Assembly: GCA_020055645.1 (NCBI GenBank)
Contig: CM034547.1
Span: forward strand, 30,566,513-30,630,512
Source of the DNA: Tomocerus qinae
Lineage: Eukaryota > Arthropoda > Collembola > Entomobryomorpha > Tomoceridae
DNA: 64,000 nucleotides
Direction: 5' to 3'
Numbering within the stretch: the stretch's first letter is position 1; every line of letters starts with the position of its first letter. This document shows, one piece after another, positions 2,326-52,760 of the stretch. The translations under genes and the position numbers were made by a program. The notes under the pieces are model-generated. The model searched no databases. It was given only the letters and a program-made list of their open reading frames with translations, and had not been told where the DNA came from.

Positions 2326-5151
2326 ATATCATCGTCATCACATCACCAACACATGTACTTTTATTACTACCTATATAACCTAAGACTATTATTTTTCTTT
2401 CTCTATTAATGTGCATGCACATATGTACACAAAATACCCAACCATCATGACACGACGGCTATGACAAAAAGCAGAGTAAACGAACAAATGGACGTTGACG
2501 TTCAATATCCATACGTATCTCACATTTTAGGTAGCGTTGAGTTGGATGGAACCATATGCATAACATACCAATTCTGCCCGAGTCTTTATTCAAGTTGACT
2601 GTACAGTACACCTTTTAGGAGCTGCAGAGCGAAAGACATAACCTCTCTAAGCCTGTAGCCTATAGCTAACCAAATTTCTGAAATCGCCAAAGGGATTATG
2701 ACGTACTAACTAGAGCACAAGAAATGTTAAGTGTTGGTTACTGGTTACATACCAACGAATATCCTGTAAAACACACATTATTGGGTTACAAATTTAAAAT
2801 TACACTAAAACAGGAACAAAGCAGGTAGGGAAACAGAAAAGACAGACACCTTGAACTATACAAGGACATATGAGATTTGGTATGGACTTCGCGGTCAAAC
2901 AAGTAGTACTTTATGTACATCTCTACTCTATACAATGCATAGTGATAAAATAAATCAATTTTTAGCTTAAACTATTCAATGGTCGGTACTCCAAAGAAAA
3001 TTCCAGTCAACTATTATTTTCCAGTTCACTAAAAGACAAGACACATCATCACATCTATATAGGAGCATCTAAAAACTAAAAGTAGTTTTACCGATTGATT
3101 GTATATGCATATAAAATACTCTGTATAATCACGATTTATCATCACTTATGAGAAACATAAAAACTTGATGTTATGCCGCTGAGCTGTTACTACTATATTA
3201 TACGAATACGATTTACTATAAATATCAAGTAATGATGAACAAAAGGATATTAAATATATAGTAGAAATAGAAACCAGGGAAAATATCAGAGTACATTTAC
3301 TATCTATAACATGCTTTCCTCCACATAAAATGAGGTAGACAAAGTTAAGGTGTAACATCTATATAGATACCTACGATTATTGCACTGACTGATTGTACGT
3401 TACATAACATCACGACATTAATACTCCAAAGCTGAAATGTACCTCAACAACACATGGCATCCAATTCCCTAGTATCTCTTTGTTACTTTCGTAGGTTCCA
3501 ACTTTTTCCACAAACAATTGATGCAGAGCAGTGGGCATTGGATTACCTACTTACTTTGCATTATCATCAATATATCTAATACCTGCACATCCAGGTAGAA
3601 TAGCTTAGCTTGCTGGAGTAAGTAAACCAGCTAGAGAGATACCTAACTACCTGCAATATAATGCCACGCTATTGTCCTGCAACCTTAATAAGACATGGCA
3701 CAGTTCTCTTTTTCTTTTTTTCCTTTCTCAAGTTTAGTTGGTAACTGGTATGCACGGTGGTAGAATTGGAAGGAAGGAGCTCAAGAAAAGAGCCAAGAAA
3801 GAACGAACAAATGAAACCAAAATGAACTGTAAGCTGAGCCCTTGAACTCATCCTGTAATGTAATTGTAACTTGTAGTAACTAAACAAGAGCCACACAACA
3901 GCTCAGCCAACAGCTCCAGCTAAGCTTGCTTAGATTGCCCATGGAAAAGAAAAAAGAAGTTCAAAGAAAGGCATGGTAAATGTGCACGGTACCTACGCAT
4001 AGTGTTTTAGTGTATTATATTATTATGTATTATAAGCATAATATTACACACATAAATAGTTACTACTTCAAAGAAACTATGCACTGTGTGTGTGTAGGTA
4101 TAGGTATATGTGTATTCTTATGTTCTTTGCTGTTGTTTGTATGTCTCTAGTGTTGTATGTTAACAAAACCACATCTTTCATCTTCATCTCATTCAACTAC
4201 ATCCTTTACATCTCATCTCTTCATACAGAATAATGGTCGACTTGACGAAACTCCTAACTCCAGCCGCATCACTCTCTCTCTCTCCCAGTATACACTTTAC
4301 GGAAAAAATATCCTTTGTTCTCAACTCAAAGTTAAGTTGAGTTGCATTCGGTTACATTATCTGTGCATTATTACATAAACGCTCTGTAATATGTAAGTTA
4401 TGCTTTAGAAGAAGGTACCTACCACTCACAAAGGTGTACATGTACCATTATATGTATACTGTGTGTGTATGTCATGAACAATACGAAAATACGAATTTTT
4501 ATGTATTTTATGTGGCTATAAAGGATGCAGATGGACTCGACTCGAGACAAGACACCCATTATGCTATTATCCTCATCCTCTCACTTACTTTTCTTATTCT
4601 TTCGTTTACTTTATACGTATAATTTAGAATATATGTAATATAATAATATAGACCAACAAAGACAGCAGACAGCACAAGTACAAAGTACATAACATCCAAT
4701 TAGACAATATGCAAGTTGTAAGTCCATACTCACAACTCTAAATATTTTTACATGTGAGATTTATTCTAGAAAAACTTCTAGGTATACACGTTCTCCAACT
4801 CTTGTCAAATATAGTCAGACAGACCAGAAACAAGAATTTGATTATATAAAAGAAACAGAACAGACAGTCATAATATAAAGCTGAGCTTGCCCACGCACAG
4901 TATTATATAGGAGACGTTTTCTCAAGTTAATTTGACTTTGCCTAATATGTCTTGAGTCTGTCTTTAGCTTTTCCGAATTATTTAGACGTACATAAACATT
5001 AATTTACTTATTGTTTAGATGGAAATAATTCTATTGACTGTATATACTGGTTGATTTAAAATGAGATGGGAGATGATCTAGACAATAATAACTAAGCCCA
5101 ACCGGTGTACCACTAATAAGTATAATATTGACAATGAGAACATTAGCTAAC

Positions 5152-5452
5152 CTTGACGTCCAACGATTTCAGCCACATGTTCTGAACTTGGTACTGGAAC
5201 ACACTCAGTCATGTTTTGGCTCTTTTTCGGGAGCAAATTACGGATGTCGTCGGCGGAAGTGAAGAATGGTGATTCATTGGGTACACCAGCATCCGAAGGA
5301 ATTCCAGGGTTTAATGGTTCATTAGCAGCAAGTCCAAGCATGGACAACTCCAAAGCCAACTGCAGTGCCCGTTGATCTTCAAGTCCGACACTTCCTCCAG
5401 TGTGAGCCGAATGATGATGATGGTCCATATCTCCAAATAGACTAGCAGGCAT
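5152..5452 (-). CDS. MEX3: MEX3-type KH RNA-binding protein, first coding exon
   Basis: First coding exon of a MEX-3 family RNA-binding protein: cytoplasmic regulators with two KH domains that bind mRNA 3'UTRs and control translation and cell fate. ATG at 5452-5450 begins [10 protein letters not shown], which resembles the vertebrate MEX3 start. Then come a His run, an acidic/aliphatic helix ([18 protein letters not shown]) also seen in MEX3 proteins, and the start of KH1 ([20 protein letters not shown], then IVGRQ). The exon ends at 5152 in phase 1 at a GTTAGC donor, just before the expected Gly-Cys-Lys-Ile-Lys of the GXXG region. A TAA lies upstream in frame without another ATG, so this start is secure. 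The rest of KH1, all of KH2 and any RING domain lie beyond the left edge, so intron 1 exceeds 5.1 kb. The gene is partial in this window only. Confidence 0.9.
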
Positions 5453-8400
5453 CACAGAATTCTCACTATTCACGTTCAAATTAATGTCAAATGTCAGTTT
5501 TATTTACCTCCCCAAAAACGTTTCTTCTTTGTTTGTATTAGTGTAATAAAACCGATTGGTATTCGTGCCGGTAGTGGCAATCTTGAGAAACATGAACAAC
5601 GAACAGTGAGTACAGTTTAAAGTAGAACTAATAAATATTCTCGTTCGAGTTTTGAAATGTTAAAATTCTCTGGAAATACTCTGTAATTATGGACAATAAT
5701 AATAATAATATAGGTATGAATATTGATCTGTGTTACGTAAGTATAATAATAAAAGTCGAGCACACTGGATTGTACGACAACCAATTCCAACTCCTGAATG
5801 GATGACACACGCGAACAACCTACACCTTCGACGTGCAAAACTGTAGTGACTCTCGAAACTCACTGAAAGACAGAACTAACTAACGAAAGCGCCCAACTAT
5901 TCACGGAACACGTCCATGGAATGGAACTTGCTCGCTTAGCTTCCTTCGCTCTGTGCTGTGCTCTTGCATTGAGTAGAAGCCCGCCGTCGTCGTCGCTTCG
6001 CTTGCTTTACTTACAAAGCAACCTTTTCCCTCTTTTCCTCCCCCTAAACTCTAAACTCTATCTATGTCTTTAGTCCTTCTTCTATCCTGCAACTGCAGCT
6101 CTCATCTCCCTATGCAGCGTGTCCAAAATATTCCACACACTCAAATCATACCAACTTGAAACTATTTTTATTATAACCATCATAATCATAACCAGGTATT
6201 ACGTACTACTGCTTATTATGTCCATTATCATGCACACAAAACATTTCATATGTACTAATTATTATAATTTTTGTATTTTTAACTCAAGTTCCAGTATGTA
6301 ATGATGATGATGGAATTGCTAAAGATTTGCTGAATTAAAATCTATGCCTGCTTAGATCCTAATCGTGTTTATGCAAGATTTACATAATTACACGACAAGA
6401 AGCAACTGCATAATAATGACTAATGGCACCATAGAATGATATGGAATACACGTTACCTCATGTATTATTGTATCACTTAATTGTGCGAAACAGGAAGATA
6501 TGAAAAGTAAAATTATGCGATTTATTAAACTTTCAAGCTCGTTATGATCGTAGTACTGTAATTCTCAATTTGAGAGTAGATCAAGATACTCCACGGGGGG
6601 TTGATACATGTCAGAACATTGAAAATATAAAAATCTGCGTATACATAGTTGGAAACAAACCTTTAATGAGCGAGCATTACAATTTTGAAATAAACTACGA
6701 ACGCAATTACTGTGAAGTGTGAAATAAATGCTAAACCAGATATGTGCATGTGTAAGATTAGGAACGATTGATTCACTTACTAAATAACTACATTGTGTTT
6801 ATGTGGCTCATTAAATGGTTATACAAAACTTCTTGTTCTTGTACAATAAAATCGTAATCATTTTCATTTTTATCACAACATTTTTAAATTACAGTATTAT
6901 ATTGCTCGCACAATGCATTTTTCTCTGTGACTCTTAATAAAGTTAATAAAGAAGAACATTACAAAACTCATTTATTATTGGGAATATGATCAATGAGATT
7001 GTCACTAAAAGATATATAGTTCACTTATTAATCAAAAATTCCATTGCAATGCAATAGTGTCCAAAATCTGATCTGTTAAAATAAAGAATCAATTTACAAA
7101 TAATATGAATTGAAGAGATGATGAGACTAGCCAGCTGAGCTTATTAAACCAAACATAGATAACTACACGCACTGCGTAGCTAGCTACAGAGAAATTAATA
7201 TAGTAATACAAATTAAATTGCACTTAAGTACATGCTTACACAAACTACCCTTACTTCTACTACAAACAATCGCTCAATATTGAATGTATCATAAGTACCC
7301 ACAGACATATACATTGTATTTACTTACAACCTTACAAGTTACGACTTACAAAAAGTACATCTCTAAAACTAGGAAGAAACGAAAGAAAGAATCGTGTTAG
7401 TGAGGAAAATAGAGACAGTGAGACAGACCAGGAAACAGGAACACCACTGCCATATAACGGACACAATTTCAATCACTCAAAACAGACAAAGGATTAGGCT
7501 AAAACGCTTATGAAAGTTAACAAAGTAAAATTTTGTTCTTTTTTATCTATTAAACAGATTGGAATAGATTTCTAAACATAGAATTAAAGCTAATGAATAA
7601 ACACATGATTAATAGTGATTAAACTTACATGAACCTCATTAACCACACAGTTATAAAATTCTAGAATGTAACTGCCTTCACAATAGTGTTACTGTTTTTC
7701 ATTGTCTTCTTGCATTCGTATTTTCAATTACTGTTACAGTTCATTAAGCATCAATTTATGATCAAGTGATGCTATCAAGTTTACAAATCTATTGCATGAC
7801 TGTAAATGACACATGCGTCACAATATTTATTACTGCAAATCTGTCCCTAGTACATTTATCTTTCTTTTGCCTAATATTAATTGATGTTAATATTAATACT
7901 CATTTAAACCTTCAATAACGTCTGGTTATGATTTGGGTTGCGTAAATCATAAATTCGTTTACGTAAGAACAGTTTTATTAATGATCTGTTCCACGCAATG
8001 TAATTGATGCTAATAAATAACTAAGATGGTTTGTAATAAGACGATTTGTATATTGTAGACTAAAAATTCATCTTTTGACGAAATATTCGGTCCTGTTTTA
8101 AAACGTTTGTGCGAAGCTATTTTTGAAGAGCTCATTTTAGAATATACTATCATCATTAATTCATTAAAATCAGAGCATGAAAATAATTGTCGATAGCATA
8201 TGAGAGGATGAGAGGACCAGCTATGGCCAAACAGATTTTGCTTTTAGGCTCACTAGCCTGGACATTTAACTCATGCACATCATACCTTAAGCATGTTTTA
8301 ATACCTTTGCCTAACGAGATGTCAAAGGCAATAATTTATGAGTGTGGGGGTGGACTACTTCATAGTCATAGCCAACACAGTTAATTATTAGCTTAAAATA

Positions 8401-11098: not shown

Positions 11099-14000
11099 TT
11101 AGTCCATTACTCTAAAGTTGTTATTATCATAGACATTTCTACCGTTATATATTTGATATGGATATTTTTCATCATGATTGTTCTTTTGGATGTAATTCAT
11201 TGTTGCAATATTGTTAAGAGGTTGCTTATGATAAAATTCCTCGTAGTCAACGTGAGGATAATCAGTTCTATTCCAAATATTCTGATTTTGTTGAACATAT
11301 ATAGGCGCTGGTACATTAAAACCAGTATCATGAGATCTCAAGCTAGAGATACTATTGTTGTTTCTTTTACTAAGCTTGCTACACAATTTTTCACTTCCCT
11401 GTCCCTTGGCAGACTTCTTCCATCTCCGGTAAAAATCTAGCACTTGCATTTTTACTCCTCTTTGCCGTTTTCTGTCTTCCCGGATTGGACCTTGACGATA
11501 CTCTTTTAAGGCCATCAGAATAGCGTCATGTTCTAGAAAATGTTGAGGTTTTTACAGCCATAAAAATAATAACAAAAGACACATAATCTATTTTTAATCT
11601 CTAAAGTCTACCGAAGAGAAAATGCAATAATAAATACATACAACTGTCTGAAATGCTAGTAATTATATTCTGTTTCAATTTACTTGAATTGGAAGCTCCA
11701 ACATATGAAGCTTTTTTAATAGTTTCACGCACGTCAGAGCGAGAACAGTAAAACGAAATTGCTGGTGTGACTCCTACATTACGACGACGTAAGTAGTGTT
11801 CCATAAAATCAGCTCCAATTAATTGTTCATGGTCCTCCATTCGAATGTGAACAAATAGCTTTATAATCTACGTAACATTTAAAAATTTACGATTAGGCAT
11901 TTCTCAATTTGATTTGCAGCTGAGAAACCTTTTCTTGCCTTTGCTTTTACTTCGATTTAATACTTACGGAAAATATAATGAATGTTGTAGCAGAAGACCA
12001 CGCAATAATACAAAGACAAGCTAGTGCTTGCACTCCAAGCAAGTAAGCTGAACCACCTTAAAGAAAAGTAAGCATGAAAAAATGTCTTAAATTGTAAGAA
12101 ATTGCTTGATAGTTTAAGTCTTAAGGCAAATGAAAATACATACCATGGAATAGTCCCACGGAGTTTTTAACAAAGCCGGCTCCACCATCATCGGCAGTAA
12201 AGAGTCCAACAGCTAACATCCCCCATATTCCTCCAAATCCTTTCATATACGGAAATATAAAAATAGTACAAATCATTTATAAGTTGGTGCTTCTATACAT
12301 TCATATAACAGGGCTAGATGAACCTTGGACTGATGCATAAGCGATATTCACTATTAAAATGTAATGGTAAGTAATGCATTTTTCAATCATTAGTAGGGGA
12401 AGGAAATAAAGTTAAATGTAATATAAGAAGTATCGTACTTTATATAGTTTCTGTGTATGTAACTAAATGTACAAATAGACTACATATAAAACATACCATG
12501 AACTGATGTAGCTCCAACCTGCCATGAAAAAAGTGTTAAGCAAACATCGTATATGGACTCATTTAATTTGATTGAAAGTAAACAATTTGTGCAAATGTGT
12601 TTCAAAGTTAAATTACTTACAGCGTCATCGATTCCTAAACGATCCGTAATGGACGAAGTTAATATAATGATTATGCCAGAAATAACGCCTATTGCAAAAG
12701 CTTCCCAGGTGGAGACCAGAGCACAACTTGCGGTTATGCCCACTAATGCCCCCAAAACAGGATTTACAATGTCAAGAACCAACATTGCCCTCAATTTTAT
12801 AAAAGCGTAGACAGTTCCAACAAGTCCACCACCGATCGCTGATATCATAGTCGTCACTGCTGCTCTAGCAGCAAACTTCCACTTTTGACCGGTAACACCG
12901 TAAGTACTGTGTTATAAACAAGCAAAAATTATAGAGAATATTGAATTAAACAATTTCTCGAATGTCTTCATTGCCCTACATTATTAGTTGGATTTCAAAG
13001 AAAGCAAACGAACCTTCCGGCATTAAAAGCCAACCATCCCCACCACAAGTTAAGCAAACCATATATACAGCTGCTGGGATTTCCTATAGGAAGAGGGTCA
13101 ATTCCTTTATCATATCTTCCGAGTCTAGCCCCTAACATCCAAGAAGCCACGAACGCTGTTGATATGAAAAACAGTATCTTCTAAGGTATAGTACAGATAT
13201 ATAAATTGTTTTTACAGAATTGTTTTAATGTTTCATGAACATTTTTATTCGTCATTATTACTCCTAGTCAACAATTTTGTAAAAAGCATGGTGTAGGCCA
13301 GAAGAGCTAGGGAAAACTTGATTGTAAAATCGTAAACTTAAAGACTCCTATATGGAGATATGTTAGTCTTGCATGGCACTGTCCATGTGAATTGTGAAAA
13401 ATTGTCTTCAAATTAAACTAAGTCACAGAAAACTTCACTTGAAGAAGTGAAATGTAGAGAAAAATTCCAAGTTTAATTTAAGAAGATTGAATTAAAAACA
13501 CGAGATTTATATAGATTTATATAGTACCATATAGCACTAAGCGTATTACAAATAGTTCATGAAAATAAAAATGGAATTAAAGGTATTTGTATTATGTGAT
13601 CCTAACATGAAACTTGATTTATAGATACTCCTGGTGGATATCTATGTGGCCAAATTGAACTTTTTTCAGATTTGGATGTAAATTAAGTTTCTAAGTGGTG
13701 ATTTTAGCCATTCTATAAGCAAGATTTTTGCCTACTTTATGCTGAATTTTACTTTATTTTATGCTGACTTATATACGTATATATTTTCTGTTTTTGGAGC
13801 CCTACTAGGTACAAGTAAAAACAGGAATTTTTAACAAAAAAAGTTTATAATATAATTTAGAAACAATAAATTGTCACAAAAGTCACAGATTTTGAAAAGT
13901 CAATTTCGACAGCTATAAAACTCATTACTTTGCTTGCAACAACAATAAAGTTATTAAGAAATACCTGAGGCTGCTCCAAGTAAATGCACTGCTCCGGATC

Positions 14001-15013
14001 CAGCTATGTCTATGACTCCCATTTCCCCTAGAAAGCCTCCAGGACCCTAAGGTGAACATCATATGTATGTTATAAAACTTCACAATACGCAGTGACCCAA
14101 CGAAAGTATAAAAGATAAATTGTAATAAGATATATGCATTATGATTTGGAAACACTAATTAATTTTGTGCTAGTAAATTCGTACCCAAATCCAGTGAGCA
14201 GGGAAAACATAGGTGACTGTATTCAATAACGAGAAAAGACAGTAAGCTGCAAAGTTGCACCTAAATTAGTAATTTAAATTTTTATCGTTTGACGCAAGTT
14301 AGATGAAGTGGGAGCACAATACTTTAAAAAGTAAGGTATGAGAGAAAGTAATTTTCTTTTAATCGCAGCAATACGGTATTGAAACTTTCACTAAAGGAGA
14401 AAAAAGCTGTCTCTACGAATTACATAATCGCGTTGTCATAAAACTTATATCACACTTAAGTTATTGGGTAAATATCATATAAATTAGCTTTATAGATGGA
14501 TTACCTTTCTGCCACGGCTCCAGAAACTATGGTAGTTGCTGTCGTTGCAAAAGATAGTTGAAATACGAAAGATGTAAAAACGTCCCCCATTTCTTCTAAA
14601 TTAGCGTTAACAGCGTATAAGCCAACCCCATTGAAAGGGTTAGATCCTGGATCTGTACCATACGATATACTGTAACCAAATATCCAATAGCTAAAGCCAC
14701 CTAGGATGATATCAACAACATTTTTCATTAAAATGTTTGCTTCATTTTTTGGAGAAACTATTCCAACTTCCAAAAGCCCAAAACCTAAAATGTTAAAGAA
14801 AAGTTACAAAGAACTTTGAAAACACAGTACGAAATGCCAATCATAACCAAAATATTTTTAAATTATATCGCAGCTTACCTGTTTGCATGGTAAAAATAGC
14901 AAATGAACAAAGCAGTATCCAAGTGGCATCATCTGAAGTAAGTTCATCAGAAGAAGGTTTTTCGGTAGTTGTGTATTTGGAAGACATGGTGGTAGCTTTC
15001 GAAACGGTACTTG
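11099..15013 (-). CDS. Amt: Ammonium transporter (Amt/MEP family)
   Basis: Membrane channel for NH3/NH4+ of the Amt/MEP/Rh superfamily. Coding exons in order: 14987-14879, 14784-14505, 14260-14185, 14046-13965, 13155-13014, 12906-12621, 12518-12497, 12239-12144, 12056-11968, 11867-11645, 11532-11099. Total 1,839 nt, 612 aa. The start ATG (14987) has a strong context (ACCACCATG) just after a 3' splice site at 15014, so positions 15013-14988 are 5'UTR. Diagnostic motifs: MQTGFGLLEVG in the first membrane segment, then the Asp168 and His176 region (GVIDIAGSGAVH) and His332 (GATSVHGFGGIWG); the last two supply the conserved pore twin-His pair. The channel core is complete. The C-terminal cytoplasmic tail (from about residue 400) is long, basic, then Asn/Tyr-rich. 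Exon 7 is only 22 nt. The junction of exons 10 and 11 is ambiguous (see findings). Confidence 0.95.
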
Positions 15014-20803: not shown

Positions 20804-23800
20804 ATGGAAAACAGTGGAAGTTACACACATTTGGAAATGGAAGATGATAACAAAACGGAAGTAAGATTGCAGTTCTTTATACATGATTTTGAGTTTGTTA
20901 ATAACTACCAATACGACCAACAGTATACCAACCAAATACGGTTACTTTTATGCTTTAACCTGGTCTTGTTAAACTGTATAAAAATTTTATTTTTTAGCTA
21001 ATTTTTGAACAGTCTGGTGTCTCACAGAGATTTACCACCAACATTAAGCATCGGAAGAATGTATTGATACCTGGAAAGTTGTCTATAACGTCCAATGTAA
21101 GTACAATAATTAATTAATTAATAAGTTAAGCCTGTAATTCTTAATCTAAACTAATATATATAAGCGTATTGAACCCTATAAATACTGTAATCAATGTAGA
21201 ATCATTATTGTTTTCAAAACCTATAGAAATATGGGAAGTACATAGAGTGGAAACCGAGTGAAAGTAGATCGACATCTCCAAGTCGATTTCAATCGGATCA
21301 AATACCATTAGTGCATGGAGCGTCGGGAGGTATAGGATTCAAAGTTGGGAAAGAAGGTATTACTTGCATTTGCATTACATCACCATCCATCCATTGTGTC
21401 TACTTTGTACAATATTTTCTAGTTTTATGATTGTTAATGTAAGAAATAAAAAACATTTCTGGAAACAAGTATATCTTCTATAATATTACGTTTTTTGGAA
21501 TGTATAGATGCGATAGAATTTTTACCTGATTTTCGAGATGCCCATGAGTATCGCCGTCCTATTCAAATAGAGTTACCTGAAATACGTTCTTACGTTTACC
21601 CCTTAAAAACCGTCCCGAAAGAGCTGACATTTATAGCATGTGACGGAACTACTTATAATCCATTTGTTTTTGAACGTGGCTCCCCAGAGAATATCCTAAG
21701 AGTTCTTGAAAATTATGTGAACTTTGAAAGGTAAAATGTTTATCAGTTTGTGAAAAAATTTTAATGATAGATCATGCATCATATATACACATTTATTATG
21801 CTAGTTGCTAAACGAAATTATATTGATTAACAGATCAAGGCAAGACAAGTCTTTACATACAGTTAAGCCAAAAATTGAAAGAGAGCCTGTACGGAACCAA
21901 ATTACAGTTGCAGAATTATTCACGGACCCTATTCAACAATACAACAATTTTCGGGGTTTTGTTAATGAGTTTAAAAACGACCCTTATACAACGGGTTTGA
22001 CAGTTTGCAGCAAAATACGTTAGTTTCCTGATTTGTTGCGAATGTATTAATGTATTGTATAGAAATTGTCTAATTCCTGTTTCCTAAACATTTGTATATT
22101 CTTTATTAGTGAATGGAGATCCAATACGAATGTTTAAGCCTACGGTTGATATTGGTGCTATAAACAGAAGTGAAAGTCAAAACTCCGAATTAGATAAAGC
22201 GCTAAGAAATGGACGAAACGGCGATGATTCCAATGGACATCGTCATGAGGGAATGGATGCAGATTGCACAACTAATGAAGAAGGTTATGAAGTTGTTTTT
22301 AAGCCGCAGACTTTAGGTATTGAATTAGGTCCTAGGCCGAAGACCTACAGAGGCCAACCTCTTAGCCAAGAACAATGGCTCAATTATATGGATCATGAAG
22401 GGCGTCTAATAAAGTTTGATGAGCTTCAGCAGATAGTGTTTCGTGGTGTAAGTAAAATTTTCGTAATTTTTAATGACTGTCTAAATAAATAATGACAATG
22501 TGCAATGAATAAATAATAATATTCAGACTTTTACGTGAATAAATGATAAACTTTTAAACTATGAATTTATACAGGGAGTGGATGGGATGATTCGAAAACA
22601 TGTTTGGCCATTTTTGCTTGGTGTTTATGACTGTGACTCAACGTATGAACAAAGAAAACATCAAATAATCGAAAAAACATGCTCGTACAACCGTATGAAA
22701 TTACAATGGGCCACAATCAGTGAAGACCAAGAAGAAAGGTTTCACGCATTCAGAGATTTCAAATCTCTCATAGGTAAAAATCATGTACTTCGTTTTATGG
22801 TGCATTAACTTTAACTTCATGGCACTGAGATTATATGTGTATAACTTTTTAACAAAAAAACACCGATTTAGTTGGATTAATAGCAACATAACTCAATAAG
22901 TAAAATTGTAATATTTGGATTGGTTATAGATAAGGACGTTGCACGGACAGATCGTACTCTGGAATATTTTAAAGGGGATGACAACCGGGCTAGCGAAATT
23001 CTAAGAAATATATTGATGACTTACATAATGTACAACTTTAACCTTGGTTATGTGCAAGGCATGAGCGATATTCTAAGTCCAATCCTGATGGAAATTCAAG
23101 ATGAAATTATGTCATTTTGGATTTTTGTTAAATTTATGGACAGAATTGTGAGAAAAACTATGAATTTCTTTTAAAAACATTTTAAATGTTAAAGGTTAAG
23201 CTAAGTTTTCAAAAAATATTTTTAAAATTATAGAACACCAATTTTGAAATGAGTCAAGAAGGCATGCAGAGACAACTTAGAGACAGTTATACTTTACTGC
23301 AATTGGTGGACCCTATGTTTAGTGCATACCTAGGGGCGTGTGATGCTTCAAATATGTATTTCCAATTTAGATGGCTTCTAATATTGTTTAAAGTAAGTTG
23401 AGCAGTTAATATTTTATTATCTTGTGTATATTTTGGTTACATTAATTAATAATGTTCTTGTCTAATAAAATATTTAAATGATAAACTATTTTTAGCGAGA
23501 ATTTACTACTGGAGATACGATGACTTTATGGGAAGCACTTTGGACTCAGCTGCCAGGAATTAACTTCCAGCTTTTTATTGGACTAGCTATACTGGTGCAG
23601 CATCGTACAACTATAATGGAAAATAAATTTGGACTCAGCGAGATTCTACGAGTGAGTTATAGTGTATTCTTTAAATTGAAACAAAATTCCTGTGGCATTT
23701 GACAATAATTGATACGATGCATTTTAGTAACGCAATCAAGGAAAAAGGAAACAGTATAGTTATGGTTTTTAATTCTATGTATTGCAGCATGTAAACGATC

Positions 23801-24105
23801 TGTCTATGAAAATCAACCTGGAACATACGATGTCTTTGGCTGAGGGTATGTATCTCCAAGTTCTGGAAGCAGAAGATAAATTACCTAACAATATTCGAGT
23901 TATTGTTGGACTGCCAGAAAAAGAAGAACCAATTCCTGACACTGCGGTAGAAATTGTTGATGGCAGTGGTGATTCGGTATCAAATTCGAGAAGTTCCCCA
24001 AATTTTTCAAACGGTAATGTTAGTTTTGTTTCCGGAGACGGACAGAGTAATGACGAAGTTGGTCTCGAATCCCAGTATGAAATGGGAGTTAGCCAGTTTA
24101 TGTAA
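20804..24105 (+). CDS. TBC1D15: TBC1D15/17-type Rab GTPase-activating protein
   Basis: GTPase-activating protein for Rabs; the TBC1D15/17 family acts on Rab7 at late endosomes and mitochondria during autophagy. Exons: 20804-20860, 20998-21096, 21227-21356, 21508-21730, 21834-22018, 22110-22447, 22575-22773, 22930-23147, 23234-23392, 23496-23651, 23788-24105. Total 2,082 nt, 693 aa, close to human TBC1D15 (about 690). The N-terminal ~270 residues match the family's Rab-binding region (LIFEQSGV at the start). The TBC domain covers about 343-600 and keeps both catalytic fingers: Ile410-x-x-Asp413-x-x-Arg416 and the YVQGMSD motif with Gln453. Other family blocks are present (RMKLQW, LMTYIMYNF, FRWLLI). 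The C-tail is Ser/Glu-rich and divergent. A poly(A) signal follows at 24887. The gene appears intact. Confidence 0.95.
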
Positions 24106-27409: not shown

Positions 27410-28474
27410 TCACTTTAAGTCGATTTCTGGACTAGGAGGCGAATCATCCTCAGAGTCTTCATGGTTCCTGTTTGTTATGCTTTCATCTTCATCATCTTCT
27501 TCAGAATTGTGATCACCGTCTTCATAATCGCCATTAATTCCTACAGTTGGAGGTACAGTAGGTGCTAAGCTATCGGATATTTTACTACACAAGTCAGCAA
27601 ACGGCTTTCCATGCAAAAAGCAAACAAGTATTACAGTCATATTGTCGCAGCCCAAGCCCCCCATTTGACAATCTGGAGCTAAACAGCTGGTCATGAGTTC
27701 CTCACAAATTGTTTCTGGTTCTTGACCCATCGCTAATCGACGACGAACAAATTGGACGGCTTCCTCGTTTGTAAGTACGTCCCATATTCCATCACAGGCC
27801 AATAAAATAAATTCCCAGTCCTCATTGACATTTCTATGCTCGACGTCCGGCAGTGCAATAACCATTTGCTCTTCAGGCTTCATACTAGTATTGCGTTTGA
27901 AAACAAAATCCCCAAGAGCCCTGGATAACGCCAAATTCCCATTAACACGGTTGTACTCTACCCATCCTCCAGCCCGAGTTATTCTTGCTGATTCATCAGG
28001 GTTGTTAGGCTTATGATCAGAAGACAATGGTTCACATTCACCTTTGACACAAGCTACTGCACGAGAGTCTCCCACATTTCCACAGAAAAGCTTATTGTCT
28101 TTAATAAGAACTGTTACGGCAGTTGTCCCGGCCAATTCATCCCTCATTTGTTCGTCTTTAAGCATGGCATTGTCAAATTCAAGAAATCCTTGTTTAATAG
28201 CAGTAATATAATCACCGTCATGATACTCTTTCCTCTGCAATAGATATTTATGTAAATGGTTGCCGGCGTGTTGAGCAACTTTTGGACCGCCATGGCCGTC
28301 ATAAACTGCGAAATATGCGGCTGTTTGATCGTCTGGCAGAGCTAAAATATGAGTATGAGCGTCTTCCATAGTCACCCGCCAGCCTTGCATGCAACTAGAT
28401 CCTACTTTATACATGGTGTTTTGAACCATTGAAGTCTCTTTTGCTGTCACTGGTTCTGATAGCGTCTGACCCAT
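27410..28474 (-). CDS. PPM-type protein phosphatase 2C
   Basis: Metal-dependent Ser/Thr phosphatase of the PP2C/PPM1 family, closest in style to the invertebrate T23F11.1/CG17746 group. A single uninterrupted 354-codon CDS (ATG 28474, TGA 27412-27410). Metal-binding residues are all present: Glu37-Asp38 (RVTMEDAH), Asp59-Gly60 (VYDGHGG), the ACDGIWD motif and the CDNMT motif. The sequence begins MGQTLS, fitting N-myristoylation (Gly2, Ser6), as in PPM1A/B, which would place it at membranes. The last ~60 residues are acidic and low-complexity (EDGDHNSEEDDEDES), absent from many homologues. A 3' splice site 60 nt upstream of the ATG (TTTTTTGCAG) shows at least one 5'UTR intron, so the gene is spliced although its CDS is not. 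Confidence 0.97.
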   Translation of the reverse strand: MGQTLSEPVTAKETSMVQNTMYKVGSSCMQGWRVTMEDAHTHILALPDDQTAAYFAVYDGHGGPKVAQHAGNHLHKYLLQRKEYHDGDYITAIKQGFLEFDNAMLKDEQMRDELAGTTAVTVLIKDNKLFCGNVGDSRAVACVKGECEPLSSDHKPNNPDESARITRAGGWVEYNRVNGNLALSRALGDFVFKRNTSMKPEEQMVIALPDVEHRNVNEDWEFILLACDGIWDVLTNEEAVQFVRRRLAMGQEPETICEELMTSCLAPDCQMGGLGCDNMTVILVCFLHGKPFADLCSKISDSLAPTVPPTVGINGDYEDGDHNSEEDDEDESITNRNHEDSEDDSPPSPEIDLK

Positions 28475-28534
28475 TTTGGAAGTTGGATATTGACTTGAAC
28501 TTCACTATTTGAGCATGAATTGTACTAGAAACTG

Positions 28535-32596: not shown

Positions 32597-32994
32597 GTAT
32601 ATATTAGTTTCTGCCGTATAACAGTTACCAGTTATCAAACAACTTTGTCATTTTAATTATTGCTAGTAGTAAGTATACAGAACATATTATACTGTTCATA
32701 AGTGCATCGAGCGTCACAAAACTCGCAGGCCATTTTTTCTGGATTTCTGCATGGCCCCTTTGACTGCAAGGAGAACTTCCATCACCACCTACCCTGTGAC
32801 TATTTTAAATTGACTGATTATTAGAGTTTTTCCTTGCATTTCATAAAGATGACGAAGACGCCGGGCGGACCCTCTCTCCCCAGAAGACTTTCATGAGGAC
32901 ATTGGTGTTTCTTCTTGCCGTACGGGGTACGGACTCATTTCACCGAAGGGATGGACGCGTGATGGACACACGGTTACGATAATACATCAACAGT

Positions 32995-33235
32995 TAAGGA
33001 TAATGCAGTTGACAGTTTACTTACGACATTGCATCGACAGTTTAGGATAATGCAATTGACAGTTTAGGATAATGCAATTGACAGTTTAGGATAATGCAAT
33101 TGACAGTTTAGGATAATGCAATTGGCAGTTTTAGTATTATAAATAAAGCATTGACAGTGGAACATAATGCAATTGAGTTTAGTATTATAAAGCATTGACA
33201 GTTGAGCATAATGCAACTGACGAAAGACTACAGTG
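32995..33235. repeat. 22-bp minisatellite
   Basis: Tandem copies of a 22-nt unit (GACAGTTTAGGATAATGCAATT). About four near-perfect units run from about 33035 to 33125, flanked on both sides by degenerate units in which GACAG and ATAATGCAA still alternate, with some units lengthened by TTAGTATTATAAA. Confidence 0.85.
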
Positions 33236-42415: not shown

Positions 42416-45400
42416 ATGGGTCGTGTTAGACTGAGATTAGTACCTCGGGGATTTACAAAACCTCTTAAGCCTGCCTTTGACTATGTAGATTGGCAAAGTC
42501 TTTCTTTAGCTGGAAGAAAAGAATTGGGAATGACTTGGGACGGAAGTGCAGCCAAACTTTTGCAGACTTTGTCACTACATTCTAGCGATATCAATGGTGT
42601 TGCATTTGGAAGAAACTTCACTCTGGCCACTGGCTCTAGGTAATTTTTCATACATCAATTGATTAATTGAGAATTTTACCATGTACAGGAATATGTTTGA
42701 TTTTACATTTTTCAGTGACAAGAAAGTACAAATTTGTAATTGGGAGAAAGAGTCTGGATTTTCGCCTTTACCGTTTTCACCCCTTCAGGAGCATAAATAT
42801 GGGGTGAGTAATTTATTAGGAAGCTATGAATAGCATACCATAGAAATTGCACGAATATTCATTCTTATATTTACGTGGGTATTATGCTAAATTAAATAAT
42901 GCAGGAAGACTTAGAGAGAGTGAGGAAGTGAGCTTTGCTTACGTAAATGTGAAATTTAGGGCTACAGTCGTGCAGTCTACTGCACCTCTTAATCTACATT
43001 TATATCTTTTATTTGCATGATGAATAGATAACATGTGTCAACTTTTCTCCTTTTGGAACTATACTTGCAACTTGTTCTGTGGACGGCAGCACAATCCTGT
43101 GGGATGTTACTGTAAGAATTTAAAACTCGTTATTGATGGTGATAGGTTAGTATCTCTGAAATATTAATACACTTGCATTTTGTCCTTGCTTATTTTGCGA
43201 TGAGTACAGACCGGAGATAAACTAACAAGCTTCATAGCACCAGGAAATGCTGCTGTGCGAATTTGCAAGTTTTCCCCTAACTCAGCATTATTATTCACGG
43301 CAGGGGATGATGGAGCTGTCAACATTTTTAACGTTTCCACAAGTAGCCTTCAAAAGTAATCATATAATACACATGCATACACAGTTAACTATACCTGAGG
43401 AAAATTTTAAATTGACGTGTTTTAAATGCAACAACGTAATCTTTCAGAACGCTGTTAGCACATGAAGAAGCTGTTTACGCCGGCAGTTTCTTACCCGATG
43501 ACAACTACTTGGTCAGTGGTTGCAGCGCTGGTCTACTCTATCTTTGGTCCATAAATCAAGATAAGCCTGTAGCAGCTAAAGATAACGCTCATGGTACTTA
43601 ATTAATAGCAGTTTTTAAAATAAGTGAAAATCAATACAACTTCTATTCATTGAAATCCACTTTTATATGATTACAGATCTCGGAATAACTTCGTTGGAGT
43701 TTTCAAAATTGCTCATTGACTGTAAGTTTCAAAAGAGAAGGTCATGATACTTCTAGCCAGATTAACTATTAGTTTCTTATATTTTAATTTGGGTCGGTCA
43801 TTTAAGAGTAGTAGTAGCAGTAAGCAGTAACTGCTATATAGAAAATAGCGGTCAATAAGAAGGGCATAAATCAATTTCTTGTTAATTATTCATAGGTGAC
43901 GGAAGCTTAGGAAAGTTGTGTTTAATGGTGACAGGCGGTCATGGTATGTTTAAAAATTCAAATCATTTTAATCTATGTATAAGATTCATGCGCTCATGTA
44001 ATGAACTGGAGAACATTGTGTCGTACAATAGCCATTCGCACGAGTCAATAATTATTTATTTCAGACCATAGTGTTAAGATGTGGAATGTAAAACTGGGAA
44101 TGGAATTCTCCATCCAATTAATACGCACCATTTCTGGGCACTCTGAATCCGTGATGTCCGTTGCAATAAGCGATGCTGGAGGCCTTATCGCTTCTACTTC
44201 TGGTGACAAGACTCTCCGAATTTGGAATGTATGCCGAAAAGATGATTTTAATGGAAATACGGCTTTTTTAGTGTTACATAACCTATCTTATGATATATTT
44301 TTCTGAATAATTAATTGTTTACTGTTTCTTAGTTAAGTGGAACTTGCACGAAAGTTCTAGAAGGTCACTCAAGATATGTCACATGCTGTAAATTTAGCCA
44401 CGACGGCAAGCTGGTTGCTACAGGTTGAGAAATGTCCTAAACTTCCATTAACTATGATTAGTATTTTAGTCTCAATTTTTGTCAGAAAACAATTTGATTT
44501 ACAAAAGAATGCAACTATTTAGGTTCCAATGACAAAAGCTGTATAATTTGGGATTTGAGTGGAACCCTTAGCATTGATGAAGATCTACGTGGGGATGAGT
44601 ATAGTCTTTCGACGGGAGAGGTATGGTATCAATACGAAAAGCTGTGTCGTTCAAGAATGCTCCAAGAAGAAAATGGGGTCTCACTCACCGCTACTTTTCA
44701 AGTGCCTAAAGTAGACTTCAACTCTTGCACTTTCATTGGGTCATCAATTGTTGTCGCTGCCGCCAGGTCCGTTTTAGTTTAATTAATACTTATACCATCG
44801 ATTAAAATTTTTTTAACAAATGGGAAAGCTTTTATCTAAACGCCTGTAAAGTCGAGTTACATATTACGTACTAATAGTAATTACGTTGTGTATTACCTAA
44901 TGTCATGTTTCGAATTGAAATACTAAATGCTTGACTTTAGTACTAATTTTATCATAAATATTACTTTGTAACGTAAATTGTATTATTATAAACTAATCTA
45001 TCAGTATTTACTAACTAAACTTGCAATTAGTTTGTTGACTAACGCTTCGAAGACGTAAGTTTGGGAACCGTACTAGTAATTTCTGCCCTCAGCTCAGCTC
45101 GTCATATTAATTATTAGCCTTTATTTGACTTGGATTGATTGATTGGCAATTCTGCATCGTGTTCTTCGCCCTGCTATCATCATGTTATTAAAATTGGGTA
45201 ATATGAGTTGCTTGCATGTGCTTGAATTGGATCTTTGTTGATTGCTTTCGATACAACAGCAGTTCCAAGTGTGTCTTTGCCTGGGATTTGACCACCAGCG
45301 AAGAAATAGACATCTCATCAATTTGTAATCACAAATATGCTGTAAACTGTGTCGCTTACTCTTCACAACTGGATATGGTTGCTTCTGCCAGTACGGACGG

Positions 45401-47235
45401 CACAGTTAATCTATTCAACACCACAGTAAGGATATGCTTTAAATATTTACGTTCCTCAAAGAAAACCAAAATCCTTTCAATTATTTCGTCAATGTCAATT
45501 TATTTTCTAAAATGTCTAGGAGAAGAAAGGTGGGATTTATCATCCATCTGGAGGAGCCCTTCGCGTTGTCTGCTTTTCACCGGATAGTTCTATGCTCCTA
45601 GCAGCTGGGGATGATGAAAAGGCATCATTATGGCTAATGGAAACCATATCATTAATAAAGTACTTAATCCAATATTTCGGACGAATCGTACTTGGATTTG
45701 GCATACGTATTTTTAATTCTTCAACCAATTTCTTTAGGCAATTTGAGGAACATGAAGCTGCAATTTATGCAGCGGCTTTCTCCCCAGACTCCCGTTATGT
45801 TGTTACAGGGTGCGTTAATGGGTTATTAAAGCTATGGGATTGCTTGGGTGATCAATGTACTGCATCCATTGCCACACAAGAAGCTCATGAGCTCGGAGTG
45901 ACATGTTGTGATTTTTCTCCAAAAGGAATGGGAGGATCTCATGGCCTTCATCGATTTCTTTTAGCTACTGGAGGAAATGATTCCTTGATAAAGGTTTTAC
46001 TCATGGCAAAATAGAAACCCATGGCTTGGCATTTATTTTCAGTAAATATAACATTAAAATCTATTAAACAGATATGGGAAGTTACAGTTGGCTCAGATTC
46101 TGCAGGTATTGCGTTGTGGCAAACCTTCACCGACCATGGGACAGCAAATGTTATGTGTGTTCGATTTTCTTCTTCGGGGAAAATCCTTGCATCATCCGCA
46201 GGGGATAAGACTGTGCGAATGTTTGACATGGTAAGTTAATTACATGGGAGGAATAAAGTTAATTTAGTAAATTACAAATGCGTGATTATATACACGAGAG
46301 AAGTATCTATTTTAATGATCAATATTTGAGGGTTTGGGTTGCTGCGTACAAGTGATCGAAGCTCACGATCGATATGTCACAAGTTGCGCTTTTACATCAT
46401 CGGAAACAGATGGATCGTTTTTAGCTTCATGTAAGTGGAACAGGGTATTATTAATAATTTTCTATGACAGTAGAATATTGATACATAAGAGTAATTGTAT
46501 AGGTTCCGGAGATCACAAAGTATTAGTTCACAAACTACATGGATCTCTGGCATGCGAAACAGCAGCTGTGGAAAATATGGCTGTAGAAGTGTTGATATCA
46601 AAATGGACTTGTGAAGATGTGGTCAACTGGTTGGCAGAAATAGGACTGGGGGATCTAGGACATGTGTTTGAATCAAACGAAATCGAAGGAGAAAAGTTAG
46701 TCAACATAAACGACTCGACTTTATCTTCCGATCTGGGGATTGGTTAGATATTCATAAATTCATTAACTATAAACAACATTTATGACCTATTAGTTAATAC
46801 TATTCAATTTGTATGTTTAGAGGATGAAACTGTCAGGAAGCAAGTTTTGACAGAACTTCAGTGGTTAAAATCACTTGGAATGAGTTCTGTAAAAAACCGA
46901 GCTAGTAAAGGGGCTTCTGTAACAATTGCAGCTCCTGTGGAATATTTCTGCCCTATAACACATGATATTATGGTAGAACCAGTTAGCACTAGTGGTAAGA
47001 TCTTAACACTCAGGTAGACATGCCATCATCTTCGGGGACAACTATTTAATGAGCTTATATTTCCTTTTCGCTAGACGGCCACACTTATGAAAGATCAGCT
47101 ATAACAGAATGGTTTTTGACTGGAAAAACTACGAGTCCATTGACAAACATGGAACTTGATAGCATGAACTTAACACCCAATTTTGACCTACAAAATCAGA
47201 TCTCTGAATTTCTTGCTCAACGCCTACGCTCATAA
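42416..47235 (+). CDS. WDSUB1: WD40-SAM-U-box protein with two propellers
   Basis: Putative E3 ubiquitin ligase of the WDSUB1 family. Exons: 42416-42639, 42716-42803, 43028-43111, 43210-43355, 43448-43593, 43677-43721, 43896-43943, 44065-44228, 44333-44423, 44523-44766, 45263-45425, 45520-45659, 45738-45993, 46072-46230, 46331-46430, 46503-46742, 46821-46994, 47075-47235. Total 2,673 nt, 890 aa; human WDSUB1 is 476 aa. Domains: a 45-residue N-terminal extension; propeller A, seven WD40 blades (about 46-365); a polar linker with an acidic start; propeller B, seven blades (about 405-715); SAM (about 730-790, KWTCEDVVNWLAEIGLGDLG); U-box (about 820-890, EYFCPITHDIMVEPVS then DGHTYERSAITEWF). Both propellers match the single WDSUB1 propeller, so the increase is internal duplication. 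It is convergent with SDHAF3. Confidence 0.92.
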
Positions 47236-47752: not shown

Positions 47753-48736
47753 TTAGCTTTTACTAGTAGTTGATTTATCAGATTGACTAGTACTACCTTT
47801 TAATACCTCCTTGTCTTCTATTGGACTTATACTTTGTCTTAATTCATACAACTGATAAATTTGTTGGCCTTCAAATAGTTCCAGCTCATCAGGATCGAGT
47901 GCTCTTCCAACGGGTTTGGCTGTAGTTGGCCCCTTCAATCCAACTTGTTTTGCCAGCAATCCGCAATAATTCTAAAACATGAATATACATGCATGAAGTG
48001 TTACTTATTGATTTAAGTAAAGATACCTATATAAATACCTACCATACATATATGGACAAATGTATGTCAAAATGGTACTAATGTATATTAGATATAAGAA
48101 AAACACTTCTAAAAAGAAATTCTTTCCGTAACTTCCAATTTAACAGAATAAATGTGTGATGGGATGGAAAAAGCAATAGAGGTTTCCCACAATTGGTGGC
48201 CGGTCACTAAATTAACATGAATAGGTATTGAAATGACGCCAATACTTGTCTGTGTTATCCAGGGATTGTGGGAAACGTCTATTTATTAAAATTCGGTAGG
48301 ACAATGATATACTTACTATAACTATTATGGAAAGACTACGAGGAAGCGTACTGTGGACATTTGCATGTGTACGTATACGTATGTAATTTTGTCTCAAAAA
48401 TGGAAATGTTACCGTCCATTCAACCATGAAGGGTCCAATGTGTTCTTTTTCTGCAGATTTATGCCGTCTAAATTCATCTTTAACATACTGATCTCCCAGT
48501 TGTTGCAATTCACACGGAAGTGCTCTGTGTAATCTGGTTAAATACAGCCATAAAAATAATTAATTATTTGCAATTAGAATATAATACATTAAATGCTGGT
48601 ATTCTTAATAAAATTCTGAAATTGTTCAGAATGCGATTACAATAGTTCACATTCAATAGATTTACTATACTCATAATCTACAAACTCACCGAAGAATGGT
48701 TTTGTACAAGAATCTAACTTGTTGTGTATGATTCAT
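47753..48736 (-). CDS. SDHAF3: Succinate dehydrogenase assembly factor 3
   Basis: Mitochondrial matrix LYR-family factor (ACN9 family) that helps mature the Fe-S subunit of succinate dehydrogenase (complex II). Exons 48736-48690, 48533-48413 and 47971-47753 give 387 nt, 128 aa, against about 125 in human. The LYR-type tripeptide near the N terminus reads LYK (VRFLYKTILRLHRALP). The family signature LGDQYVKDEFRRHK follows, then EHIGPFMVEWT. The C-terminal exon carries the conserved region around LFEGQQIYQLYELRQSI. The first exon (15 codons) is set by its ATG, the LYK motif and a GTGAGT donor, and its phase fits exon 2. The gene is intact and divergent from EXOC8, with 687 bp between start codons. 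Confidence 0.92.
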
Positions 48737-49423
48737 TTTTATTTAACAGAAATATTTTGTGCACATTATTTTTTCTCACTTTTCACTTTCAATTACACAA
48801 CGATTATTTAAGAAACCAGAAAATAAAATGCGGCAGCTGCATGATTAACTAAAACTGCAACTTTCTCTGACTTTCACAACATTTCACCTGGCTTTCTCCA
48901 TCCTTGTTTTGCCGCTTTTTGGTTGTAACAGAATTCAGCTTTCCAAAGCAGGATCACTTTCAATTTGATACTTGATTAGAGAAAGAACTACATTCAGCTC
49001 TTGTGGCACCAAATACGAATTCCATATACAGAAGCTGTATAAAAGTCATAAGCAAAAGTAGGTGTTTCTAAAAATTTACTTCATAAGGGGGGCTGGGACA
49101 GGGGAATAAAGATACATCGACTTTGTAATCTTTGTCCAGACTGGATCTTCTTCGTTAAACAGTTACTCGTCTTAGTCTTAGCTATAAATTATTTAACGTC
49201 CTCGACTACAGTTCTCTGGGGTGGATATTAAATAAAGGTAACATTTACTTAAGATTGGCACAATTAAGTGTAATTGAACATAATTAATTGTATTATCTAA
49301 ATGTGTTAATATCGTGATAAATTGAAATTCTAAATGTAGAGTTCACAACTTAAAATACTATTTTGTTTAATTTGTTCCAGTAAGGTGGTCACTGGCACTA
49401 AACCTCAAGGGTGAAGGCGAAAA
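48737..49423. promoter_or_regulatory. Divergent promoter of SDHAF3 and EXOC8
   Basis: The two genes are head-to-head and only 687 bp separate the start codons, so 5'UTRs and both promoters must fit here. A possible 3' splice site just before the EXOC8 start (TTTGTTCCAG at 49371-49380) suggests a 5'UTR exon for EXOC8. No clear TATA box; the region is AT-rich. Confidence 0.55.
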
Positions 49424-52400
49424 ATGAGTCTAGGAGAACTTTTTGCTTCAAATGAGTTTGTCCCTGAAAAATGTAAACTAAATGTTTTTATAAGTCTGTT
49501 TCATTATGTTTGTTGACTCTATACTTATAGATGACGTTTAGTTGTTAATGGCCAATGGGAAGATCTTTTTACATTAGCGTTTGCTTACAAGTGGAATTCG
49601 CGATCTTAGAGATTCTATAGCGTAAACTTGTAGTTAGCAGACGGTTTTGATTGTTCTTTCATTGACTGTCAACTTTAATAATAATTAGCATAAGAGTCAA
49701 GTGTGTAATGAATAATAATACATAATATAACACTGTTCTGGGGCATTGTTTCTTCTACAGATGTAAATGAAATCAGTTCACAATGTGTGGGAGGAACAGA
49801 ATTGTTGAACCACAAAGCTAAATTGCAGACGGTTTCTGATGAGACGCATTCCGCCTTAAAGAAAAATGTTTATCAGCACTATGAACAATTTATCGATACA
49901 GCCAAAGATATATCTTGTAAGAGAAAAATCATTTATTATGGCAAGCTTTAATGCAAAAGCAAATAAATCTAGGAGAGCGTCAATATTGTGTTTAATTTGT
50001 AGACTTGGCGGGGGAAATGTACCAAATATCACAAATGCTAAGAGATCAAAGGAATCTAATCCAGAGCCTTCAAGACGTTTCTATTCTCGGAACAAGGAAA
50101 CCACCTACACAAGTAGCTGTCACACCAACCGAACCGGAACCAAAAACTAAGATTACCGAAGATGAATCTCGGAAGAAAATCCTAAGTGTATTAGAAAAGG
50201 TTGAAGGAGCAGCGGTAAGTTAAACAGTCAGATACAATATTAACAAGCATCTTGCCATCTCACTTTCTTAACTATCTGCAACCTTAATTTCTTTGAAGGA
50301 GGTTATTGAGGATGAAAGCAGAAATTTAATATTTGAAGGAGATTTGTTGGAAATCGATCCTGATAATTATTCAGCAGTTCAACGAAAACGGGGTTATTTA
50401 TTCAATGATGGAATCATGTTGGCAGTTTGGGTTCCTAATAGGTATAGAACAAAATTAAAATAAAATACGAGTTTATCAATATATGTTTAGTTGTAAAGGT
50501 TTTACTAATATAACGTAATAATGTAACTATTTTTGAAAATAGACGGGGCCCTCAAAGATATAAGTTTCAAGCATTTTATGAGCTAGGGTCAATCGGTTTA
50601 GTTGTCAACATTAGGGATCCGGAGTGCCCCAAACATACATTTAAGCTGCTAATTTTTCCTAGTGTTCATCTATTGCAATGTCCAAATCAGCAAGAGAAGG
50701 TAATGTTCAATGATATCGTCGAAGTAATGAAGTAATGTTTCAATCAATGAAAGAAGTTTTATCATTTTTAATTGAAATAATTTAGGACTCTTGGGTAAAC
50801 CAAGTTGAATCTATGCAGAAAATTTTAAGAAACCCTCAAAAAGCAGGAGGGTTAACAAAAGCTTTATCAATTGAAAGTCCTGTGCATGAAGCTCATGTCT
50901 CTTTGGATTCCGAAAGGGCTAAAAGCCCTGAAGACTCCATGGGCATGGTTTCATTTCAACCACCTTTACCTGAGTGGGTCATTGACATTCCAGAAGACTT
51001 AGATGTATGGATTGCTCAAAGAAATTTTGTTGAAGCTGTTAATCATTATGAATCATTTCAAGAATTCCTGGAGTCGCAACCAGTGACAATGAATTTGAAG
51101 GATATTAAGTAAGAAAAATACAATCTTGTTGAAATGTTATGTTGTGGCTACGGAATTGTTATTTCATTTCGATAATATTTTTTTACCCTTAGGCTTAAAG
51201 TTGAAATGCGTATAAAAACGCTCATAGACATCCTTGTAAGTGATTTGGAAATAATGACCCCCGAAAAAATTTTGCAAGGAGGTCCTCGTTCTATACGCAA
51301 ATCTGTAGATTTGCTTGTACGCTTGGGAAGAGAAAATCAAGCCTCGCAACTTTTCTTGTCCCACCGTTCTGCTTTTATAAAACAAAGGTTAAAAAATTCA
51401 TCATATATAATACCTATATATGTCATCGTGACTCATTTTTTGTGAATGTAAATTGTAATATTATAATCTTAATCGTTTAACTAATTGGACATTTAATCAA
51501 TTAGCTAATTAAATTACCAGGTTAAAGCGACTGAAAACAGAGGGTCGAAGTCAGTTGTACTTGGACCACATGGCAGTTATATTTTTTTCCAATATTGTTG
51601 AGACCATGAGAGAATATAAACGGTCATTTTCTGATAAGACGGCTGAAACTGCTTGTATGTTTTTATTATGTTACATGTGTCTTACATTTATGACATAAGT
51701 CGTGTGCTTATTAGGGTGGAATTGGTTGTGTTTTAAAGGTCTGGTAGTCTGGATTAATAACGAGGTAGTTAATTTCATCAACTCGTATTGCAGACAATTA
51801 TTTAGTCCACAAGCTCATCTTTCGTCTGTGTCACAGTCAGTGGCAAAGCTCAGATCTGAAAGCCAACAGGTCTGAAAACTTTTTTGAAAATACCTTTGAT
51901 TTATTGTGTTCATGTTAAACTCATCCTGTTGCAACTTAAAACGAACGTTTCATTGGTTTTTCAATACAATAATATTGTGTTGCTTACAGCTCATGGATTT
52001 AGGGATGGATGTGTCATGTACAGTGGATTCTCTTCTGCTGCCCCAAATCGAAAGAACAGTCCTGGATGCTAAGGACAAGTTAATTGAAGCTGTGCGACAC
52101 CGCTATCGATCTACAGATGAAATTGGAGTCCCCATGAAGTTTGCTGACAAAGCGCTGTTGAGTAGAGCGGTTGCTGAAATGACCGAATTGGGTGTGGAAG
52201 ACTTAAAAAATTATCTAGAAGGTAAAATAACGTTGAAGCAAATAGTACGTAGTACTACGTAGTACTACGTAGTTTTATTTTACAGCGTTCATGAGACCTG
52301 GGATTTCCTAAATAAATGTATTCAATCTTTTTTACTCACAGGAGAGACTTCATTCCGAATCAGCAGTAACACAATTTCCTTCACGAAATCCTGGTTGCAC

Positions 52401-52760
52401 TTTTGTAAAGATGTAATGCTTCTTATTGCTCCAGAATGGCAAAATTTGATTGAAACAGCGATTTGTGAAGTTATACTAGTGGAATTGAAGCATCTAGAAC
52501 GAGCAAAGAAAAAGATTTCGAATCTCAAAGTGTTGGAAATTATTGATCGGGACGTGATCTTTGTTTTAGATTCTGTTTGTAAGGCAGCAAATCAAGCATA
52601 CAAAAAAGGAATGGGTCAAGAGTTACCAGAATTGTCAATTATTGTTACTGAATACGCAGGCCTTAAAGTTTCATCAAGTCCAACGAGAAAACCTCCAGTG
52701 CCTATCCCCAGGACACAGTTACCTACACGTTCCAAATACACAACGCCGGAGTACGTTTAA
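49424..52760 (+). CDS. EXOC8: Exocyst complex component 8 (Exo84)
   Basis: Subunit of the octameric exocyst, which tethers secretory vesicles to the plasma membrane; Exo84 also binds Ral GTPases through its PH domain. Exons: 49424-49472, 49761-49916, 50003-50214, 50299-50441, 50543-50699, 50786-51108, 51193-51387, 51521-51654, 51739-51869, 51990-52221, 52342-52760. Total 2,151 nt, 716 aa; human EXOC8 is 725. The N-terminal helical region (about 20-135) forms coiled coil in the family. The PH domain covers about 150-250 (FEGDLLEID, KRGYLFNDGIMLAVWVP). The C-terminal helical-bundle part has the conserved IPEDLDVWIAQRNFVEAV and GGPRSIRKSVDLLVRLG blocks. All junctions keep frame. Intron 10 contains a small TAGTACTACG tandem. 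The gene appears intact. Confidence 0.94.
52243..52273. repeat. Short TAGTACTACG tandem in EXOC8 intron 10
   Basis: Roughly three head-to-tail copies of the self-complementary-rich decamer TAGTACTACG, immediately after the donor of exon 10. Too short to be a known element. Confidence 0.7.

Follow-up and report, generated by a model that had tools for sequence, protein, structure and literature searches.

The 64,000-nucleotide stretch of Tomocerus qinae DNA analysed here (the window) probably holds one gene whose product is a U-box E3 ligase of the WDSUB1 type carrying two WD40 propellers. Propeller A, a linker, propeller B, and then one SAM and one U-box domain follow each other in a single frame. 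From the sequence, we regard the locus with great confidence as one gene of two-propeller architecture. Its parts were assigned as follows (window positions).

42416-47235, forward strand: coding part of the WDSUB1-type gene; 18 exons, GT-AG introns, 2676-nt open frame, 891 aa
42416-42639, 42716-42803, 43028-43111, 43210-43355, 43448-43593, 43677-43721, forward strand: exons 1-6
43896-43943, 44065-44228, 44333-44423, 44523-44766, 45260-45425, 45520-45659, forward strand: exons 7-12
45738-45993, 46072-46230, 46331-46430, 46503-46742, 46821-46994, 47075-47235, forward strand: exons 13-18
42416-42556, forward strand: N-terminal extension, residues 1-47, without a PF00400 match
42557-44569, forward strand: propeller A, residues 48-361, seven WD40 blades; A1-A7 each match PF00400 alone
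44570-44680, forward strand: linker, residues 362-398, within exon 10; open frame without a Pfam match
44523-44766, forward strand: exon 10, which runs from A7 through the linker into the first half of B1 in a single frame; 0 stops in frame
44767-45259, forward strand: intron 10, 493 bp; stops in all three frames
44681-46546, forward strand: propeller B, residues 399-715, seven blades, of which B1 is weak; B2-B7 match PF00400 alone
46598-46867, forward strand: SAM domain, about residues 733-796; PF00536
46934-47223, forward strand: U-box domain, about residues 819-888; PF04564

Stop codons in the same frame lie upstream of the ATG, and an AATAAA signal is found at 47247, 3' of the stop codon. 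Reconstruction of the gene model from sequence reproduced all ten donor positions and phases given in a preliminary description of this DNA. The length of 890 aa given there holds for an intron 10 acceptor at 45263; the acceptor sequence is CAGCAG, and with position 45260 the protein has 891 aa.

The C-terminal U-box was recognised by PF04564 (E 2.6e-19; 69.6 bits, cut-off 21.4), and the solved chains that best matched the C-terminal part were U-box proteins. The SAM domain, which separates the WD40 part from the U-box, was matched by PF00536 (E 6.4e-12) and PF07647 (SAM_2; E 2.8e-10), both above cut-off; a single SAM and a single U-box after both propellers had already been described. When the blades were searched singly, 13 of the 14 matched PF00400 (E 1.6e-13 to 3.7e-4), with values of 1.6e-13 to 2.6e-4 for A1-A7 and 1.1e-9 to 3.7e-4 for B2-B7. 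Five of these 13 (A1, A3, A4, A5 and B3) lay below Pfam's 27-bit cut-off, and A7 and A6 gave the top WD40 scores among the fourteen blades. Blade B1 (residues 399-440, at the join) gave no PF00400 match on its own at a limit of E 1, in single-blade searches in which the HMMER filters discard most matches above about E 0.1; the linker together with B1 gave no Pfam match at E ≤ 0.1. Aligned with A1, B1 scored 28.5, a value equalled by 2 of 5000 shuffles. The earlier wording of two complete seven-blade propellers goes a little too far: PF00400 bears it out for 13 blades, but B1 goes unmatched by that model and resembles A1 beyond shuffles. The WD40 propeller ahead of the SAM domain is propeller B, with B2-B7 recognised by the model and B1 through comparison with A1 only. 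A search of the protein against NCBIfam returned 0 families.

The case for one gene turns on exon 10 and intron 10. Coding scores were based on codon usage in the remaining exons of the gene and in a PP2C frame elsewhere in the window, with the gene's other introns as background. Exon 10 has 0 stops in its own frame, versus 3 and 7 in the two alternative frames. Its score of 0.361 bits per codon is among the lower values for exons of this gene (0.172-0.741); within the exon, the linker part (44588-44695) scored 0.254 and the B1 part 0.395 bits per codon. Intron 10, read in windows of 30 codons, scored -1.38 to 0.06 and has stops in three frames. The terminal part of exon 10 is similar to that of exon 1, the site of the matching intron in propeller A, with a score reached by 9 of 5000 shuffles; intron 10 has the phase of intron 1 and lies within one alignment column of its position. 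Exon 10 is coding-like along its whole length, from A7 through the linker into B1, and intron 10 has the look of non-coding sequence. Both points argue against two genes and sustain the earlier reading of one continuous gene.

Two adjacent genes or transcripts are unlikely. Propeller A would then form a WD40-only protein by itself, next to a WDSUB1 of ~479 aa started from an ATG at 45216 in intron 10, and some features agree with such an arrangement: this ATG is in frame with exon 11, the product would be close to the 476 aa reported for human WDSUB1 (PMC3087547), and an ATTAAA motif lies within intron 10 at 44801. The intron 10 donor, GTCCGT, is weak by eye, and leaving the intron unspliced would yield a propeller-A-only protein with a stop five codons later. 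A start at 45216, however, would exchange half of B1 for a non-coding-like stretch (-0.006 bits per codon). Exon 10, by contrast, supplies the matching first half of B1 in frame and ends at a splice site in the phase, and within one column of the place, of the A1 intron. A hidden intron in exon 10 with a strong-looking donor at 44621 was considered and rejected: the AGs listed between 44600 and 44766 all lie at frame-breaking distances from it bar one, which is 21 nt away. Some weaker exon 10 donors do have an acceptor in frame (such as 44604 to 44702, 99 nt); splicing there would give a shorter linker without loss of either propeller.

Within the single gene, propellers A and B are, by sequence comparison, diverged copies of each other that were made together with their introns. 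Propeller A was taken as residues 48-361 and propeller B was cut as 398-712; their alignment spans 304 residues at 36.8% identity (BLASTP E 1e-57). Pairing blade by blade gave a score of 486.5, against at most 190 for the other six cyclic shifts (maximum 189.5), and the straight blade order ranked first of 5040 orders (runner-up 457.5, mean 216, standard deviation 55). Taken singly, 10 of the 14 blades had their counterpart as best match, the exceptions being A1, A2, A6 and B1. Nine introns interrupt A and six interrupt B; introns 2, 5, 6 and 7 are found in A only and intron 13 in B only. Five of the six B introns match A introns in phase and within two codons or columns. Two of the five fall in the identical alignment column and three are shifted by 1-2 columns beside indels, so that the shared positions and phases described earlier hold for phase in all five and for the exact column in two. 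At least two exact-column matches arose in 187 of 200,000 random draws; at a tolerance of two columns, set only after the alignment had been inspected, five matches arose in 0 of 300,000 draws and four in 24. The blade pairing and the matched introns together indicate that the propeller was copied whole, as a genomic unit.

Either of two routes may have led to this: an intragenic duplication of the segment, or a tandem copying of the entire gene with loss of the first SAM and U-box. No relic of a SAM or U-box between the propellers was found by tblastn at E ≤ 10 inside 42416-46546; such a relic could have decayed past detection. The earlier proposal of an intragenic duplication of a segment with its introns is upheld as far as the copying of a propeller with introns is concerned, with the intragenic and tandem-gene routes left side by side.

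The duplication is old and, judged from codon comparison, both propellers have been retained under constraint. Differences between A and B amounted to 0.526, 0.385 and 0.697 at the first, second and third codon positions (expectation for unrelated sequence 0.73-0.75); where the residues are identical, 29 of the 43 fourfold sites differ. With third positions almost saturated and second positions conserved, the pattern points to an old event with constraint on both copies and agrees with the age proposed beforehand. That propeller A is a decaying relic carried as a functionless passenger is very improbable, because it has no stops or frameshifts, all seven of its blades match the WD40 model, with A7 and A6 the best of the fourteen, and its second codon positions are conserved relative to B.

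The 334-Mb assembly (115 contigs) was searched for further copies. The whole protein gave at least 33 matches, of which at least 16 were exons of this gene; at least 17 weaker ones elsewhere (E 2.8e-10 or worse) covered WD40 stretches only, all counts being lower bounds as 51 of 88 candidates were scored. U-box matches occur at 5 places in the genome and SAM_1 matches at 26, side by side only in the WDSUB1-type gene. Whole-protein, U-box and SAM_1 searches of the assembly revealed no second WDSUB1, and the gene is apparently the sole copy within the limits of these searches. An unrelated WD40 gene fused upstream of WDSUB1 is largely refuted and scarcely credible: WD40 repeats are common and A1, A2, A6 and B1 (4 of 14 blades) lack their counterpart as best match, but the unshifted register scores 486.5 against ≤ 189.5 for the six other cyclic shifts, five introns are common to A and B, and the remaining WD40 matches in the genome are far weaker.

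WDSUB1 is described in PMC3087547 as seven WD40 repeats, SAM and U-box (human protein 476 aa), which agrees with the earlier statement that known WDSUB1 proteins have one seven-blade propeller. The gene described here has the same order of WD40 propeller, SAM and U-box but two propellers, in contrast to the seven WD40 repeats given in the available text of PMC3087547 and PMC10238197. According to the available part of the former, a survey of 2010, WDSUB1 is an animal-only gene that Drosophila and nematodes lack, is lost more readily than any other animal U-box gene, and had roles that were then totally unknown. None of six arthropod genus names occurs in the text of PMC3087547. The relatives of unusual build that it describes (Monosiga with 2 SAM and no WD40, Amphimedon with 6 WD40 and no SAM, and two further sponges with SAM and U-box only) indicate that the domain set around the WDSUB1 U-box varies; none of the exceptions named in the available text has a doubled propeller, unlike the gene here. 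A doubled propeller could have been missed in that survey, because its WDSUB1 comparison, as given in the available text, covered human residues 271-472 only. The available text of PMC5172248 names WDSUB1 once, in a table.

Tandem propellers in one chain are also found in other two-propeller WD40 proteins (Pfam names WDR3, WDR36/Utp21, MABP1/WDR62 and EML), which are families distinct from the WDSUB1-type gene; the matches to their Pfam models are due to shared WD40 repeats only. Proteins of these families are not known to carry SAM plus U-box. Against a provisional human WDSUB1 sequence, a three-sequence search gave E 4.6e-56 for A, 2.4e-45 for B and 2.1e-31 for residues 701-891. With the same provisional sequence, identities were 36.4% between the human propeller and A, 34.7% between human and B, and 37.0% between A and B; 44 columns were common to A and B alone, 41 to A and human and 36 to B and human, values too similar to single out a closest pair. 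The three propellers, the human one being provisional, are about equidistant, which allows a duplication near the age of the lineage split. Rather tentatively, and with the odds against it, the two-propeller form may be an ancient, clade-wide WDSUB1 in which the second propeller took on a distinct partner (scaffold and substrate rings).

Among the literature matches listed, which came largely from outside subscription journals, no paper on a two-propeller WDSUB1 was found. Annotated orthologues may well be present in sequence databases. When the SAM-U-box part (180 aa) was searched in two non-animal collections, viral_contigs gave 1 pattern match, which was not confirmed, and genome_contigs gave 37, of which 0 were confirmed; both results are uninformative on spread.

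The predicted protein is highly likely to have E3 activity. The U-box would recruit a ubiquitin-loaded E2, the propellers would dock substrate, adaptor or both, and the SAM domain may add self-association or a further contact. Most likely, a doubled propeller would provide two docking surfaces, by which the enzyme could hold a substrate together with an adaptor, or grip one partner at two sites; the chance that the two propellers bind two different partners appears to be about even. Mammalian WDSUB1 is reported to bind the WHRN scaffold and to promote ubiquitination of USH2A (PMC10238197), and since USH2A is reached through WHRN there, an additional docking surface could plausibly be of advantage. 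An apparently sole-copy WDSUB1 with a doubled, long-constrained propeller offers a natural experiment on propeller binding, in which partners common to A and B can be contrasted with partners of one propeller. The locus is moreover a whole-propeller duplication with its intron record intact and differs from the amplification of single blades that is stressed in the propeller literature, as represented by the available text of PMC6805158 and PMC9218822.

Other features of the window and genome were recorded in passing. A small gene on the opposite strand at 47765-48740 ends ~500 bp from the stop codon of the WDSUB1-type gene; by eye it resembles SDHAF3, and the one fragment searched gave no Pfam match. 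The PP2C phosphatase at 27410-28501 (reverse strand) is an uninterrupted stop-to-stop frame of 363 aa (PF00481, E 8.2e-80) without an intron, in contrast to the many-exon WDSUB1-type gene. Exon-like frames of an ammonium transporter lie at 12154-14785 (reverse strand), with 12621-12899 matching PF00909 (E 4.9e-16). Exon-like frames at 50065-52760 (forward strand) resemble the exocyst subunit EXOC8/Exo84; the fragment 50786-51103 matched PF16528 (E 5.3e-5, under the curated cut-off) and 52263-52760 gave no match. Exon-like stretches at 5150-5464 (reverse strand) and 22115-24093 (forward strand) resemble, by eye, a MEX3-type KH protein and a TBC1D15-like protein, respectively, and one fragment of each gave no Pfam match. 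A tandem repeat with a 22-bp unit (6.3 copies) occupies 32974-33131. In the genome, (TTAGG)6 gave 400 overlapping matches, versus 0 for the reversed pattern. TTAGG is the usual arthropod telomere unit; the matches listed lay mostly in the interior of large contigs, not at contig ends.
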